Source of the DNA: an uncultured Muribaculaceae bacterium
GTDB taxonomy: Bacteria; Bacteroidota; Bacteroidia; Bacteroidales; Muribaculaceae
Assembly (NCBI GenBank): GCA_947632485.1
Contig: CANRPJ010000005.1
Coordinates: forward strand, 1-64,000
Direction: 5' to 3'
Length of the DNA stretch: 64,000 nt
Both the position numbers and the translations under genes were made by a program. Shown in pieces: positions 1 through 6,199 of this stretch; position 1 is the first letter of the stretch; each line of letters opens with the position of its first letter. The notes under the pieces were generated by a model. The model was not told the origin of the DNA and searched no databases. It saw only the letters and a list, made by a program, of their open reading frames with translations.

Positions 1-1850
1 GGTTATTATATAACGTACCGAGTCAGTCGAATATTTTGGTTAGCCCTGCCACGGAACTACGCCGCTGCCCCCTTTTCCTTGACGCTCTTGAAGAGGAATT
101 TGAAGCGGCTTGTGCTGAGGCTCGTGAAAAGATTGCAAAAAAGACGAACCCGGACCGAGCCACACAACGTCTTCGCGCTCTGCTCTCCCGCATGTCAAAT
201 ATAAAATTCTTTGACCCGGCTTGCGGTAGCGGCAATTTCCTTATTATCTCTTATAAACGTCTGCGTGAACTTGAAATCCGCATTTGGAAAGCCCTACACG
301 ATATTGCTAACATTGCAATTTTGCCTTTTCCGAACATTACTCTCACTCAATTCTACGGCATTGAACTTGATGAATACGCTTGTGATACAGCCACGCTTTC
401 GCTGTGGCTCGCCGAGCACCAAATGAACGTTAGATTTAAGGAAGAACTTTACGTGCAACCCGAAACTCTTCCGCTCAAACCATCCGGTCATATCGTCTGC
501 GGCAACGCTTGTTGCCTCAACTGGAACATCGTTTGCCCCCACACTCCCGATGATGAAGTTTACATCATGGGTAATCCGCCGTATCTTGGAAGCAAATTGC
601 AAGATGACGCGCAGAAAGAAGATATGCAAATTGCGATGGATGGTACAGATGCATCTAAAACGGTAGATTACATAGCTGCTTGGTTTTGGAAAGGATCTCA
701 GTATATTCAAGGAACAAAAGCAAAGTATGCCTTTGTTACTACTAATTCCATAAGTCAAGGTGAGCAGGTTGCCATGTTATGGAAACCAATCTTTGATCTT
801 GGGCTCGAAATTTTCTTTGCACACACTTCTTTCAAATGGAGTAATAATGCAAAATACAAAGCCGCCGTAACTGTTGCAATAATTGGTGTTCAGAACGTTG
901 TGAGTTCGGATAAAAGACTTTTTGTAGAATCCTTGCATACTGAGAAAAAAGTCAAATCCATCACTCCTTATCTTACCGAAGGCGATTCGATAATTGTCGT
1001 AAAAACTACGAGAGTGCCAAATGGATTTCCTGAAGTCCTTTTTGGTAGTATGCCAAGAGATGGTGGTCATCTTAACTTTGAAAGAGAAACGGCAGACCGA
1101 ATAAGGCTCGAATATCCCGACGCTGCTCATTTCGTTAAGAGATATATGGGTTCCCAGGAGCTTTTGCAAGATGTTGAAAGATATTGTCTATGGATTGAAG
1201 ATACGCCGATAAATATCAAAACAGCCAATTCTGTCCCTGAAATAAGCGCGAGGTTAAAAGCCGTATCTGCTGAAAGAGAAGCAAGTAATGCTCCAAGCAC
1301 GCGTGCTTATGCTAACCGTCCACATATGTTTGTACAGCGAGCATATAGACCAACTAATGCCATTATAATTCCTTCCGTATCATCCGAAAGAAGAATCTAT
1401 ATTCCTATAGGTTTTGTAGGCCCCGATACCGTTATTTCCAACCTTGCGTTTGCAGTATACGATGCGAAGTTGTGGCTGTTTGCATTGTTGACCTCGAAGA
1501 TGCACAATCTTTGGGTTAGAACGGTTGGCGGCCGATTGAAAACCGATTATCGTTATTCTGCGACACTGTGCTATAACACTTACCCTTTCCCTAAACTGAC
1601 AGCAGCTGAGAAAGATGAATTAGAAAAGTTGGCGCAGGAAATTCTTAATATCCGCGATGAGAACTTTGATATAACTCTTGGCGAAATGTATAATCCGGAG
1701 TCGATGCCTGAGGAGCTGCGCGAGGCTCACCATCGACTTGACCTCGCCGTTGAACGTATATACCGCCCGGAGCCTTTCACCTCCGACGAAGAACGCCTCG
1801 AACACCTTTTCAAACTCTACGCCAAAATGACAAAAAATAATGGAAGATAA
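1..1850 (+). CDS. MmeI-type class I SAM-dependent DNA methyltransferase, 5' end outside window
   Basis: An N6-adenine DNA methyltransferase of the MmeI/COG1002 type, which would protect self DNA by methylation. The SAM-binding motif DPACGSGNFL lies about 60-69 residues after the first possible in-window start (a TTG at 36), and the catalytic NPPY lies at 180-183. A target-recognition and C-terminal region like that of MmeI follows. The frame is open without a stop back to base 1, and family members are much longer, so the N-terminal part, where any endonuclease domain would sit, is upstream of the window. Its 3' end overlaps the DUF2971 start by 11 bp, and the helicase and GIY-YIG genes follow on the same strand, so it is probably the modification subunit of a multi-gene defence locus. 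The methyltransferase call is firm; whether it also cuts cannot be seen. Confidence 0.88.
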   Translation, partial: LLYNVPSQSNILVSPATELRRCPLFLDALEEEFEAACAEAREKIAKKTNPDRATQRLRALLSRMSNIKFFDPACGSGNFLIISYKRLRELEIRIWKALHDIANIAILPFPNITLTQFYGIELDEYACDTATLSLWLAEHQMNVRFKEELYVQPETLPLKPSGHIVCGNACCLNWNIVCPHTPDDEVYIMGNPPYLGSKLQDDAQKEDMQIAMDGTDASKTVDYIAAWFWKGSQYIQGTKAKYAFVTTNSISQGEQVAMLWKPIFDLGLEIFFAHTSFKWSNNAKYKAAVTVAIIGVQNVVSSDKRLFVESLHTEKKVKSITPYLTEGDSIIVVKTTRVPNGFPEVLFGSMPRDGGHLNFERETADRIRLEYPDAAHFVKRYMGSQELLQDVERYCLWIEDTPINIKTANSVPEISARLKAVSAEREASNAPSTRAYANRPHMFVQRAYRPTNAIIIPSVSSERRIYIPIGFVGPDTVISNLAFAVYDAKLWLFALLTSKMHNLWVRTVGGRLKTDYRYSATLCYNTYPFPKLTAAEKDELEKLAQEILNIRDENFDITLGEMYNPESMPEELREAHHRLDLAVERIYRPEPFTSDEERLEHLFKLYAKMTKNNGR

Positions 1851-2670
1851 TATATTATATCATTATACCTCATTAGAGGTTCTAAAATGTATTTTTGAGA
1901 ATTACTCTACAGATAACCCTTATCTTACCTTTTGGGCCACCAACTGTGCCTATATGAATGATCCCCGAGAAATATCTGAGGGAATAGATATCATAAAAGA
2001 TGCTTTATACGATATTCATTGTCCAGTTTTAAGAGAACGAGCGAGAGTCATTTGGGAAAACGAGAAGATTGCAGAAGCTTTACTAATAAGTTCGACAATG
2101 TCAACAATGGGAGTTCCCTATGCTTTGTCTTTTTCAAAAAACAAAGATAACATAAATATGTGGCGAATGTATGGAGACAATGGTCGTGGGATTGCATTGG
2201 GCTTCAAGCGGGATATGATTATCTCTGAGAATTGCAAGCTAGAAAAGTGTGAATACAATGATTATGGCAAAAATTATGAAGCACTAATAGATACAATTAG
2301 AGGGGTCTTTGAATGTTACATTGGGAAAATAGGTGCCGCTCCTAAAGGTATTTCTCAAAAAGATTATGACTTTATTAGCATATGTAATGTGATAGGTCTT
2401 GTTGCACCATTGATCAAAAACGAGATATATAGTTATGAAAATGAGATTCGTTTAATCAAAAATAATAAGAACCCGAAATTTAGAGTTGTCAATGGCATAC
2501 TTATACCCTATACAACTATACAATTACAAATTGAGTCTTTGTACTCAGTTACAATCGGGCCGGATTGTGACAGGCGAAATATAAACTCTTTGAGATTGTT
2601 CTTTTTATCAAAAGGCTTAAGGAGCTTATCCGATAATATTATACAATCAGAAGTCCCTTATCGCAATTAA
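1840..2670 (+). CDS. DUF2971 family protein inside the defence operon
   Basis: A 276-residue protein matching the DUF2971 pattern: YHYTS at 7-11, MNDP at 39-42, a central SFS at 97-99 followed by W and GIALGF, and ENEIRL at 200-205. No signal peptide or membrane segment is seen, so it should be cytosolic. The biochemical function of DUF2971 is not established. The H-Y / S-x-S / E-x-E layout resembles ADP-ribosyltransferase active sites, but that is inference only. It overlaps the methyltransferase gene by 11 bp and lies 14 bp before the helicase gene, so it is co-transcribed with both. It is visibly more AT-rich than its neighbours, which suggests it was inserted as a cargo gene. It could be a toxin-like effector or a sensor. 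Confidence 0.8.
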   Translation: MEDNILYHYTSLEVLKCIFENYSTDNPYLTFWATNCAYMNDPREISEGIDIIKDALYDIHCPVLRERARVIWENEKIAEALLISSTMSTMGVPYALSFSKNKDNINMWRMYGDNGRGIALGFKRDMIISENCKLEKCEYNDYGKNYEALIDTIRGVFECYIGKIGAAPKGISQKDYDFISICNVIGLVAPLIKNEIYSYENEIRLIKNNKNPKFRVVNGILIPYTTIQLQIESLYSVTIGPDCDRRNINSLRLFFLSKGLRSLSDNIIQSEVPYRN

Positions 2671-2684
2671 ATAATAACAATAGC

Positions 2685-4655
2685 ATGAATAATCTCGTTG
2701 AAGTGCAGTATGCACAGACTGGCAAGTCGAGTAATACTGATGGACTCGGTATGCGTGAAATGCAAGCAATGGTCTATGCTCAGCGCAACCGTAAACATCT
2801 ACTTGTAAAGGCACCACCGGCTTCGGGCAAGAGTCGCGCAATGATGTTCGTAGCACTCGATAAACTTGCCAATCAGGGAATTAAGAAAGTTATCGTAGCT
2901 GTTCCTCAGCAAAGTATCGGTCGTAGTTTTAAGAGTACCGATTTGAAGGGATCTGGATTTTTCGAAGATTGGCGAGTGGCTCCATACTGGAATTTATGCT
3001 TAAATGTAGGAAGCGAAAATTCTAAAAAGTCTATTGTTCACGAGTTTCTTGATAATCCAACGGCAACTAAGCTTGTATGTACTCATGCTACTCTGCTCAA
3101 TTCGCTGAATGGTATTGATGCACGTAAACTCGATAATATTTTCTTCGGCATTGACGAATTCCATCATGGTTCTGCTGATGAGGACAACCGACTTGGAACT
3201 CTTATTCGTCGTCTACTCAATGAGACATCAGCTCATATTCTTGCGATGACAGGCTCATACTTTCGCGGCGATGCTGTGCCCGTGATGCGTCCAGAAGATG
3301 AAGCAGAATTCCAGCCCACCATCAATTATAACTACTATCAGCAGCTCAACGGTTATAAGTGGTTGAAAAGCCTTGGCATCGGCTATAGTTTCTTTCAAGG
3401 TAATTATCTGACGGCAATTCCAGATGTGCTTGACACTACAAAGAAAACTCTTATTCATATTCCGCACCCCAATAGCAAAACTGGTGCATTCATGAATAAA
3501 CACGACCAGGTGGCGGAAATAATTAAGCATATTGGTGAGATTGTTGACATAGACTATAACCATTATCTGTATAAAGTTAAAACTTCCGATGGTAGGATTC
3601 TTACTGTAGGTAATCTTGTGGAAGATAAAAAGGAGCAGCGCGACGTATTGCAGAGTTACCTTCAACATATGAATAGGCGTGACTCCCTGGATATTCTTAT
3701 TGCTCTCGGTACGGCAAAAGAGGGTTTCGACTGGGAATGGTGTGAACACTGCATCACAATTGGCATCCGTGCATCGTTGACTGAGGTAGTGCAGATTATC
3801 GGACGTTGTACTCGTGACTGCGAGGGTAAAACTCACGCACAGTTCACTAACCTTATCCCTTGCCCCGATGCTTCACAGGACGATGTGGCTATGGCTGTGA
3901 ATGACTTTCTGAAAGCTATTTCAGCATCGCTTCTTATGGAGCAGGTAATGGCGCCAAAATGGAATTTCAAGACTAAACCTGATGAAGAAGCGCAGGAAAA
4001 ACCGGAAAAATATGATGAAGATGAGCATGTGATTGAAGTTAAAGGCTTACCTACTCTTAACGATAAAACAAAAGCTATCGTTGAAAACGACCTTGATACG
4101 TTGGTAGCTACTACGCTTTCTGATAAAAATATTCGTGAGGCGATCATAGGCGAGGGCATGGCAGAGATGATTACCGAAGTATACATACCTAAAATAATCC
4201 GCGACACCTATCCTGACCTTACGGAAGAAGAAGTTAATGCGGTGACACAACATACAATTCTTACAATCGCCACGCAGGGTGAACAGGTTGTCGGGCCTGA
4301 CGATTCAGGCAATAAGTTTATTAAGATTGCCAATAGATTTGTTAATCTCAACGATCTGGATATAAACCTTATTGCCGGGATAAATCCTTTTCAACGAGCT
4401 TACGAAGTCGTTTCCAAGTCACTTACGCCTGAAACGCTACGCACCATTCAATACGTAATAGAGGATAAACGTTCTGAGCATCTTACTGATGAAGAAGCAA
4501 TCCTTCTATTTACTAAATACCTACCAAAATGGCGTGAAGAAAATCCCGGAAAAGAGAAACCTGAAATTACTGATGGTGATCCTAATGCTCGGCGTATAGC
4601 AATGGCTATCAAACATCTCAAAAAACTGAAACGTAGTAAACTCGCTCAACAATAA
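2685..4655 (+). CDS. DEAD/DEAH-type superfamily 2 helicase of the defence operon
   Basis: A 656-residue SF2 helicase or translocase. Walker A is APPASGKS at 43-50, motif II is DEFH at 157-160, motif III is TGS at 189-191, a motif V-like GTAKEGFDW lies at 342-350, and motif VI is QIIGRCTR at 370-377. The roughly 250 residues after the motor are acidic or helical with no family I can name. It probably uses ATP to move along or open DNA for the neighbouring nuclease and methyltransferase. The stop and the next start share one base (TAATG), a sign of translational coupling to the GIY-YIG gene. It lacks the HsdR-type nuclease domain, so cutting would have to come from a partner protein. Confidence 0.85.
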   Translation: MNNLVEVQYAQTGKSSNTDGLGMREMQAMVYAQRNRKHLLVKAPPASGKSRAMMFVALDKLANQGIKKVIVAVPQQSIGRSFKSTDLKGSGFFEDWRVAPYWNLCLNVGSENSKKSIVHEFLDNPTATKLVCTHATLLNSLNGIDARKLDNIFFGIDEFHHGSADEDNRLGTLIRRLLNETSAHILAMTGSYFRGDAVPVMRPEDEAEFQPTINYNYYQQLNGYKWLKSLGIGYSFFQGNYLTAIPDVLDTTKKTLIHIPHPNSKTGAFMNKHDQVAEIIKHIGEIVDIDYNHYLYKVKTSDGRILTVGNLVEDKKEQRDVLQSYLQHMNRRDSLDILIALGTAKEGFDWEWCEHCITIGIRASLTEVVQIIGRCTRDCEGKTHAQFTNLIPCPDASQDDVAMAVNDFLKAISASLLMEQVMAPKWNFKTKPDEEAQEKPEKYDEDEHVIEVKGLPTLNDKTKAIVENDLDTLVATTLSDKNIREAIIGEGMAEMITEVYIPKIIRDTYPDLTEEEVNAVTQHTILTIATQGEQVVGPDDSGNKFIKIANRFVNLNDLDINLIAGINPFQRAYEVVSKSLTPETLRTIQYVIEDKRSEHLTDEEAILLFTKYLPKWREENPGKEKPEITDGDPNARRIAMAIKHLKKLKRSKLAQQ

Positions 4656-5848
4656 TGATAAACTGGGAGAAAGAACTTGAACGGATTTTTGAGGATCCGC
4701 TACTGGCCGATGTCGTCGCGCCAAGGAAACGCACTACATCATCAGACCGTCTGATTGCCGGATTCCAAGAAATATTAGATTTCTACGAAAAAAATGGTCG
4801 CTTGCCGGAAGATACCATTGAAGAAAGATCATTGTATCATAAGTGGAAAGGCATATTAAAGAAAGAGGTGAGCATACAGCATTGCCGACCTTTTGATACT
4901 CTCGGTATACTTCCGCAGGAATCTCAGGTAATCAAAGAACCTGAAGCTAGGTATCAAAGAGAAATGACTGAAGAAGAAAAACTCGAAGCAATTCTCAATG
5001 ACCCGCTACTATCGGACGTTCAGCCCGGGGAAGACTTAGGCTTATTTGACGTTCCGGAATATATGCGCCAACGTTTGGAGGCGAGAAAAGAAGCCGAATA
5101 TGTTGGGAAACGTCGTCCTTGCGATGATTTTGAGAAATATGCTGACGGGTTCAAAGACGTTCATCAAGGGCTTAAATCAGGTAAGTTTAAACTAATTAAA
5201 TTCAGCGTCAAACATCTCAAGGTTGGCTGCTATTTTGTGGAGAACGGTATGATTGGCTACTTGGCAGTATTTGAAGATGAAGGAATCAATCGCCACGGGG
5301 ACCGTGACGGTCGAACTCGTGTAATTTACGAGAATGGTGTAGAGTCGGACATAAAGTATAAGACCATTACTAAAAACCTATCTGTTACCGGTTACTCTGT
5401 CATAGATTGCTCGGATATGACCAATGAGGAGTTTGAACGATATTTTACTCTTACCGAAAAGGATGTTGAGAGCGGCACAATTTATGTTCTTCGTTCAAAG
5501 TCGACTTGTCCTGAAATTTCAGCTATTAAAGACTTATACAAAATCGGGTTTACCGTAACTTCGGTAGAAAGTCGTATTGCCAATGCCGTAAAAGAGACTA
5601 CATATCTTTGTGCCCCGGTAGAGGTAGTAGCTACTTGGAAAGTCTACAATGTGAAATCCTCTACCTTTGAGGCCTTGATTCATAAATTGTTTTCATCGGT
5701 ACAGTTACAAGTAACTGTAGATGGACATCGTCCAAAAGAATGGTTTATTGTTCCTTTCAATATAATTGAGGAAGCTGTGACTGCAATAATTTTAGGTAAA
5801 TCTATTGAATATAATCCTGAAATGAATCAGCTAATATATAAGTCATAA
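4655..5848 (+). CDS. GIY-YIG/T5orf172 nuclease-like protein
   Basis: A 397-residue protein with a C-terminal GIY-YIG-fold domain of the T5orf172/MUG113 kind: GTIYVL at 274-279, YKIG at 295-298, arginine 307, FEALIHKLF with glutamate 339, and KEWF at 361-364. Tyr, Arg and Glu sit where catalytic residues are expected, so it is plausibly the nuclease of the operon. The N-terminal 270 residues are not a family I recognise. They contain the same short motif twice, LERIFEDPLLADV at 8-20 and LEAILNDPLLSDV at 110-122, possibly docking elements. Its start overlaps the helicase stop by one base. Cleavage activity is inferred from fold and context, not shown. Confidence 0.78.
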   Translation: MINWEKELERIFEDPLLADVVAPRKRTTSSDRLIAGFQEILDFYEKNGRLPEDTIEERSLYHKWKGILKKEVSIQHCRPFDTLGILPQESQVIKEPEARYQREMTEEEKLEAILNDPLLSDVQPGEDLGLFDVPEYMRQRLEARKEAEYVGKRRPCDDFEKYADGFKDVHQGLKSGKFKLIKFSVKHLKVGCYFVENGMIGYLAVFEDEGINRHGDRDGRTRVIYENGVESDIKYKTITKNLSVTGYSVIDCSDMTNEEFERYFTLTEKDVESGTIYVLRSKSTCPEISAIKDLYKIGFTVTSVESRIANAVKETTYLCAPVEVVATWKVYNVKSSTFEALIHKLFSSVQLQVTVDGHRPKEWFIVPFNIIEEAVTAIILGKSIEYNPEMNQLIYKS

Positions 5849-5860
5849 AATAATCGTGAC

Positions 5861-6085
5861 ATGGATACAAATAACGGTATATTCCAGAGGATTCATTTTG
5901 CTGTAATGGCGGTTGAGAGCGGTGCGCGTAAGCTGAGGATCTCCGGCAAGGAGATGCACGACCGATTGAGCAAACAAGGCTTAATCCAAAACAGACTTAT
6001 CAAAAGGTATGAGGAACTTCATACGCAAAGCCTTGATTGGGTTGCCGACGACATTAGTGAAAAAACTTCTAAATTGGGAGGCTAG
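5861..6085 (+). CDS. DUF3791 small protein
   Basis: A 74-residue protein with the DUF3791 signature: FAVMAVESGARKLRISG at about 13-29, and ELHTQSLDWVADDI near the C-terminus. DUF3791 genes usually sit directly beside DUF3990 genes in Bacteroidota and Firmicutes. The pairing has a toxin-antitoxin look but, as far as I know, has no proven function. Here a DUF3990-like start follows 3 bp downstream but breaks off after about 15 matching residues, so this gene may be the surviving half of a damaged pair. It lies 12 bp after the GIY-YIG gene and is probably the tail of the same operon. Confidence 0.8.
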   Translation: MDTNNGIFQRIHFAVMAVESGARKLRISGKEMHDRLSKQGLIQNRLIKRYEELHTQSLDWVADDISEKTSKLGG

Positions 6086-6088
6086 CTT

Positions 6089-6175
6089 ATGATAACGCTT
6101 TATCACGGTTCATACATTGCAGTGCAATCTCCGAAAAAATGCTATAAATTAGGAATTATAGTGCGTTCAAGCTAA
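6089..6175 (+). pseudogene. truncated DUF3990 gene remnant
   Basis: An ATG 3 bp after the DUF3791 stop opens a 28-codon frame starting MITLYHGSYIAVQSPKK. The LYHGS start followed by a Pro-Lys motif is how DUF3990 proteins begin. The frame then departs from the family and stops next to the 26-bp palindrome. Full DUF3990 proteins are several times longer. The position directly behind DUF3791 supports the assignment. The break most likely marks a deletion or recombination junction. Confidence 0.6.
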
Positions 6176-6199
6176 TTTTGCACACGCGTGTGCAAAATT
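6174..6199. repeat. 26-bp perfect palindrome at island edge
   Basis: The half-site AATTTTGCACACG is followed immediately by its exact reverse complement, with no spacer. It sits between the DUF3990 remnant and the orphan winged-helix ORF, so it may be a recombination or insertion scar, a dimeric protein binding site, or a cruciform. There is no T-run typical of a terminator. Confidence 0.85.

Follow-up and report, generated by a model that had tools for sequence, protein, structure and literature searches.

Four closely packed genes open contig CANRPJ010000005.1 (C5) of an uncultured Muribaculaceae bacterium (assembly GCA_947632485.1), and the question they raise is whether they form a new kind of defence operon. 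They encode an MmeI-type DNA methyltransferase (MTase), a DUF2971 protein, a superfamily 2 (SF2) helicase and a GIY-YIG/T5orf172 protein, and an earlier note on this DNA had proposed an undescribed system combining modification, DNA translocation and cutting. We analyzed the first 64,000 nucleotides of the contig, referred to here as the window. The set is a DnmA-YeeB-YeeC cluster, likened to that of Bacillus subtilis by gene order, domains and published descriptions; judged from its sequence, the window copy is a broken member, with an MTase gene apparently split by a mobile element. The kind of cluster is already known, and the new part is a cargo slot between the MTase and helicase genes, where the DUF2971 gene lies. 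Loci and contigs carry L and C numbers below, and published work (PMC accessions) is cited from excerpts.

A known kind of cluster with a conserved gene order

PMC7261158 places DnmA among MmeI homologues that lack the endonuclease motif and are flanked by yeeB- and yeeC-like genes and, citing Morgan 2009, suggests a Type I-like system for DnmA-YeeB-YeeC. PMC9973331 describes conserved synteny downstream of dnmA, with the helicase gene first and the T5orf172/GIY-YIG gene second. The window has the same order of MmeI-type MTase, SF2 helicase and T5orf172/GIY-YIG protein, with DUF2971 between the first two, and its MTase is without the N-terminal ExK nuclease motif; PF20465 matches were also found in B. 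subtilis, a control genome. We therefore reject the proposal of an undescribed system, since these two papers already have the cluster in print as conserved and Type I-like. According to the excerpts, the function of this kind of cluster is disputed.

Of 393 genomes of the order, 17 have a helicase relative, counting the window's own genome; relatives were also found in 263 of 72,556 plasmid records, in at least 558 confirmed stretches of a genome collection and in 41 viral contigs, with a partial match in 2 of 50,697 phage records. We compared 127 loci, all found through the helicase: 5 chosen plasmid loci (of the 263 records), the best 80 of the at least 558 stretches, the 41 viral contigs and the window. 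A GIY-YIG gene lies downstream of the helicase gene in 124 of the 127 (the exceptions are L083, L129 and L153), and an MTase gene lies upstream in 108. Eighteen of the 19 loci with no upstream MTase show less than 2.5 kb on that side, and the remaining one, L049, shows 8 kb without an MTase. One of the 18, L079 (1126-7013), has the order helicase, GIY-YIG, MTase, with the MTase gene downstream. Among the loci of the order's own relatives, the GIY-YIG gene is downstream in 15 of 16, the exception being a 188-residue helicase fragment. Hosts in the genome collection include Bacteroidota, proteobacteria, Sulfurimonas, Anaerovirgula, Planctomycetes, Lentisphaerae, Chlamydiae and Leptospiraceae, and the plasmid carriers include Arthrobacter and lactobacillus plasmids. 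The counts of 124 and 108 rule out a random one-off arrangement, which would have undone the proposal of the earlier note, and point to a block conserved beyond chance and in the same order across phyla.

Apparent splitting of the methyltransferase gene by a mobile element

The source assembly comprises 2,596,019 bases in 48 contigs, with a contamination of 0.13%, and base 1 of the window is the first base of C5. Bases 1 to ~71 recur at 11 other places in the genome with 93 to 100% identity, every one of them at a contig end, so that 12 contig ends carry an end of the element (C1, C5, C8, C14, C16, C18, C21, C24 at both ends, C32, C34 and C41). About 23 initial codons of the first open reading frame (ORF) derive from this element. 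Two related end types occur among the ends read, one of them at C5 and the other at the end of C18. At the C18 end (locus L011), next to the other end of the element, lie the initial ~330 codons of an MmeI-type MTase gene, with MmeI_hel encoded among them. An 8-bp repeat at the element edges is common to both flanks, and the C18 and C5 flanks map side by side on the uninterrupted MTase genes of relatives L037 and L039. The genome contains no second copy of the body of the MTase fragment, and its MmeI_hel domains are confined to C18 and to another MmeI-type gene, on C15. Because of the repeat, the side-by-side mapping on intact relatives and the absence of a second copy, we conclude that the element has, by all appearances, split the MTase gene in this strain. 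The earlier note had read the first ORF as an MmeI-type MTase; Pfam bears out the family, and the ORF contains only the C-terminal ~590 of ~920 residues. A whole m6A methyltransferase gene, as found in L037 and L039, is thus not found in this strain.

The split might instead be an artefact of assembly or strain mixture, with an intact gene in the cell. The division into 48 contigs, the many contig ends that carry the element end, C5 included, and the fact that no whole copy of the element was seen assembled in the genome would agree with this explanation. We consider it highly improbable, in view of the different element end on each side, a repeat of the kind that transposition leaves, the lack of any other copy of either MTase part and the low contamination. 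The element itself has long, imperfect inverted ends and appears to break the assembly at many places; it had no match in plasmids, and a 30-base piece of it had no exact match in viral contigs.

A split gene could still yield a product: the C-terminal fragment might be made from a start near the element end, methylate DNA and keep the system working. The MTase core, the target recognition domain (TRD) and the C-terminal domain all lie inside the fragment, which is open without stops. Against this stand the loss of the first ~330 codons with the helical MmeI_hel domain and the 95 relatives in which a single ORF, at least 840 codons long, spans both parts, and we regard a working fragment as very unlikely.

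Both the helicase gene and the GIY-YIG gene remain open in this strain. Their silent changes are saturated and therefore carry no information on decay after the insertion. In L032, L036, L044 and L069 the MTase ORFs are short or split and the helicase and GIY-YIG ORFs long, for which sequencing errors are a possible source; the cut-short or split MTase ORF of L032 adjoins an IS26 transposase gene.

Nuclease residues of the methyltransferase and of the GIY-YIG protein

Motifs were compared in 96 cassette MTases, made up of the 95 full-length ones and the 5' part of the window gene. None of the 96 has Glu at the E column of the ExK motif. At the E and K columns, the 5' part of the window gene has K and N according to a first alignment, R and A according to a second. 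MTase motif I is present in 93 of 96 and NPPY in 92 of 96; the window's 5' part ends before both and is among the misses. For comparison, 30 MmeI relatives were fetched from 198 genomes of the order, 28 of which gave ORFs long enough to align. The D..ExK motif is kept in 23 of these 28, and none of the 23 has a helicase in its flank (1.5 kb at most). Of the five relatives without the motif, three belong to helicase-bearing genomes. The window's own genome has a second MmeI-type gene (contig C15, L012:5191-7989), which is intact and keeps D..ExK and whose flanks, again 1.5 kb at most, gave no helicase match.

In the GIY-YIG protein, the earlier note had singled out Arg307 and Glu339. Both exist at these positions, and Y277, R307, E339 and H343 are each invariant in the 122 sequences in which the residue is aligned (124 sequences aligned, the window included). 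Together, these observations fit a history in which cutting passed from the MmeI chain to the helicase and GIY-YIG protein, and in this respect the earlier reading of a modification-helicase set with a separate GIY-YIG nuclease appears sound, with a conserved gene order and an MTase devoid of the MmeI nuclease motif. Two results weigh against such a history. By a loose search, 10 of the 96 cassette MTases, the window's included, have an out-of-register D/E-x-K no more than ~12 residues from the motif column. Moreover, L181 and L185 (2 of the 28 MmeI relatives) are N-terminally short and lack the nuclease region with no helicase in view, so motif loss is not confined to this cluster. The TRD of the window is 44 to 54% identical to that of three of five relatives and 84 to 86% to that of the other two, against 73 to 91% in the C-terminal domain for all five, a divergence as expected of exchanged specificity.

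The cluster could also be a non-restricting relic, with DnmA as an orphan regulatory methyltransferase and YeeB and YeeC as passengers. In the excerpts of PMC9973331 this is the paper's own conclusion for B. subtilis, in which deletions had no effect on three phages and the site is not avoided in phage genomes. The same paper cites Piel et al. for Vibrio crassostreae, in which deletions of the dnmA and yeeB homologues gave more sensitivity to some phages. That result argues against a relic, as do the key helicase and GIY-YIG residues conserved across the aligned relatives, the maintenance of the block or its helicase on plasmids and viral contigs, and the fact that the gene broken here is the MTase gene and not that of the helicase or nuclease. 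We judge a relic unlikely.

A slot for exchangeable cargo between the MTase and helicase genes

The spacing between the MTase and helicase genes in the 108 loci is at most 60 bp in 55, 61 to 200 bp in 4 and more than 200 bp in 49, with a maximum of 4,360 bp. That between the helicase and GIY-YIG genes, measured from start codons, exceeds 200 bp in 21 of 124 loci and reaches at most 458 bp (Fisher 3.4e-6 for spacings over 200 bp, with the relatedness of loci not corrected for). An operon-strand ORF of 95 or more codons is present in 47 of the 49 slots longer than 200 bp, and where a slot has any ORF of that length, the largest is on the operon strand in 47 of 48. With starts assigned mechanically, the slot ORFs lie at a median of 2 bp from the MTase stop.

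There are 64 such operon-strand ORFs (at least 95 codons) in the slots, and they form 36 groups. Single representatives of 29 groups were scanned with Pfam, with the window DUF2971 standing for a 30th; 20 of the 30 scored above the cut-off and 10 had no match. The families include SLFN_AlbA_2, RhuM, YhcG nuclease, Zeta toxin, DUF3990 (in L042), AbiJ_NTD4, Abi_C, PIN, ParE, Fic, AAA_15 (OLD-like) and DUF3800. Among ten chosen proteins, PADLOC recognized AriAB (PARIS) in L048, Old in L082 and AbiJ in L072. In L048 (5060-6967) the slot has a fused, PARIS-like AriAB gene followed by a RhuM-group gene. In L049 (3050-7998), which shows no MTase, SIR2 and HerA genes (PADLOC) and an AlbA_2-like gene are situated directly upstream of the helicase gene. 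The slots, at 66 kb, contain 21 relatives of AlbA_2, RhuM and YhcG, and the other ~987 kb of the same loci contain 3, a ratio biased upwards by the choice of these families for being common in slots; a further 5 belong to loci that show no MTase.

Cargo also differs between close relatives. The five genome-collection loci nearest the window have helicases 78 to 91% identical to its own, and their slots hold a 246-residue protein with relatives in L040 and L044 (L037), DUF2971 and Zeta toxin (L038), a YhcG relative (L039) and AlbA_2 relatives with different partners (L040 and L041). In L015 (89% identical), the slot contains a 280-codon ORF that is not DUF2971 by the relatedness test. The slot thus looks to be a site of exchangeable, mutually unrelated genes, many of toxin or defence families. 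We found no description of a cargo slot in DnmA-YeeB-YeeC in the literature searched, available in excerpts and with no search aimed at the slot alone. PMC9973331 mentions that an uncharacterised family may be a further member of the locus in some bacteria, and according to PMC12707154, some restriction-modification (RM) systems are coupled to accessory genes hypothesised as toxins.

The DUF2971 protein

The earlier note had counted DUF2971 as a member of the set. With DUF2971 in 2 of 127 cassettes (the window and L038) and other occupants in the same slot elsewhere, we reject it as a core gene and regard it as an exchangeable passenger. The 11-bp overlap with the MTase gene, the 14 bp before the helicase gene and its presence in L038 would also agree with DUF2971 as an essential subunit of this particular system; given its rarity, the 55 of 108 loci with at most 60 bp between MTase and helicase genes, and the unrelated genes that others hold there, we give this hardly any credence.

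The family occurs in 73 of 395 genomes of the phylum, the window's own included. An alignment of 31 members, picked without motif filters, shows W108 and Y139 in 31 of 31, K193, E200, E202 and G240 in 30 of 30, R204 in 29 of 29, D41, Y111 and G117 in 30 of 31, N40 in 28 of 31 and Y9 in 26 of 29, a pattern that looks enzyme-like. Comparison with the PDB gave a weak match only (E 0.53), six exact peptide patterns revealed no relatives in viral contigs, and the name DUF2971 is nearly absent from the literature searched, where a single paper uses it. Because of the company it keeps in the slot, the protein is most likely a co-expressed accessory, a back-up toxin or guard that stands outside the cutting machine.

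Proposed mechanism

The locus is probably best explained as a Type I-like restriction system in which cutting by the helicase and GIY-YIG protein depends on DnmA, with the MTase gene split here and DUF2971 as an accessory. DnmA would read an asymmetric site through its TRD and methylate a single strand at adenine. Where the DNA is unmethylated, the site with DnmA bound to it would recruit or license the helicase, which would move on the DNA and let the GIY-YIG protein cut. The nuclease would need DnmA to act, and this would explain how a cell can live when its MTase gene is split and its helicase and nuclease genes are intact. Open helicase and nuclease genes without a whole MTase gene imply that the two are not freely self-destructive and either need DnmA or are silent; the data fit either alike. 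Restriction in this strain is probably off.

A more tentative proposal, which we hold to be possible and rather doubtful, is that of a modular chassis. The modification, motor and nuclease genes would form a fixed core, and the position between the first two would serve for the docking of exchangeable guard effectors. Such effectors would be coupled to the MTase gene and would fire upon inhibition or loss of the restriction complex, in the manner of PrrC in EcoprrI. The DUF2971 protein, in which N-D, W/Y, K and E-x-E-x-R residues are near-invariant, would then count as a new guard toxin. PrrC inside EcoprrI and PARIS as an RM guardian are parallels for such a role in the excerpts of PMC3874165 and PMC12707154.

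The core system is widespread and functionally unsettled, with no restriction in B. subtilis and apparent action in Vibrio (PMC9973331). A natural strain with intact helicase and nuclease genes and a split MTase gene predicts MTase-dependent cutting, and a slot linking the core operon with defence modules and toxins predicts guard behaviour.

Gene layout and annotation

The features are collected in Table 1. The ORF coordinates of the earlier note were reproduced on the + strand, together with the 11-bp overlap of the MTase and DUF2971 genes, the 14-bp gap before the helicase gene and the 1-bp overlap of the helicase and GIY-YIG genes.

Table 1. Features at the start of the window
Feature	Positions	Strand	Basis
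End of mobile element (insertion sequence [IS]-like), outer end at ~base 71	1..71	not assigned	Copies at other contig ends
First ORF, MTase-type	3..1850	+	Pfam MmeI MTase, TRD and C-terminal domains
3' part of DnmA/MmeI-type DNA adenine methyltransferase gene	72..1850	+	PF20473, PF20466, PF20467
DUF2971 protein, most likely accessory cargo in the MTase-helicase slot	1840..2670	+	PF11185, 8.5e-9
YeeB-type SF2 helicase	2685..4655	+	Pfam ResIII/DEAD
YeeC-type GIY-YIG/T5orf172 nuclease	4655..5848	+	PF10544 (T5orf172), PF13455 (MUG113)

The SF2 motifs reported for the helicase are present and invariant in 13 aligned sequences, the window included (G48, K49 and S50; D157 E158 x H160; Q370 xx G373 R374 xx R377). 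A profile of the helicase found no solved relative in the PDB at E 0.001, and the GIY-YIG protein gave a weak match only (E 0.016). Five proteins were scanned with PADLOC 2.0.0, which did not assign them fully to a named system, an outcome that the earlier note had said would refute its proposal had it occurred. The MTase was the sole strong scorer (Type IIG, 1.1e-214); the helicase matched PbeA (7.7e-6), the GIY-YIG protein PDC-S57 (6.5e-6) and DUF2971 PDC-S31 (6.4e-12).

Beyond the core and still within the span given by the earlier note (1..6085), bases 5861-6085 encode a DUF3791 protein (Pfam). Read by eye, the stretch 5861-6176 has this gene and then apparently just the initial codons of a DUF3990-type gene, likely a decayed two-gene DUF3791/DUF3990-type module.

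Comparison with known systems

The earlier note had found no landmarks of BREX, DISARM or classical Type I systems, and none appeared in the scanned proteins with Pfam or PADLOC. The window MTase weakly resembles PglX and DrmMI (PADLOC). BREX is rejected, as neither PglZ nor a BrxC-type ATPase, nor BrxL, was matched among the five scanned proteins, and so is DISARM, as DrmA, DrmB (DUF1998) and the PLD protein DrmC were not among their matches. A classical Type I system is rejected because no HsdS or HsdR-nuclease family was found, the TRD lies inside the MTase and the nuclease has its own gene.

With MmeI and other Type IIL enzymes the window shares the MTase, TRD and C-terminal domains. It differs from them in that methylation and cleavage are not combined in one chain with PD-ExK: there is no in-register ExK, and nuclease and helicase are encoded by separate genes. 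EcoprrI with PrrC, a Type I system, likewise has a motor/nuclease beside modification/specificity and an accessory gene inside the operon (PMC3874165 and PMC12707154). It differs from the window, where modification and specificity are on one chain and the GIY-YIG nuclease is in its own gene; an anticodon nuclease was not found in the window set. In B. subtilis DnmA-YeeB-YeeC (yeeABC), as the excerpts describe it, an MmeI-type MTase devoid of the endonuclease motif, an SF2 helicase and a T5orf172/GIY-YIG protein follow each other as they do here, and the window differs from it by the extra DUF2971 gene and by the MTase gene apparently split by the element.

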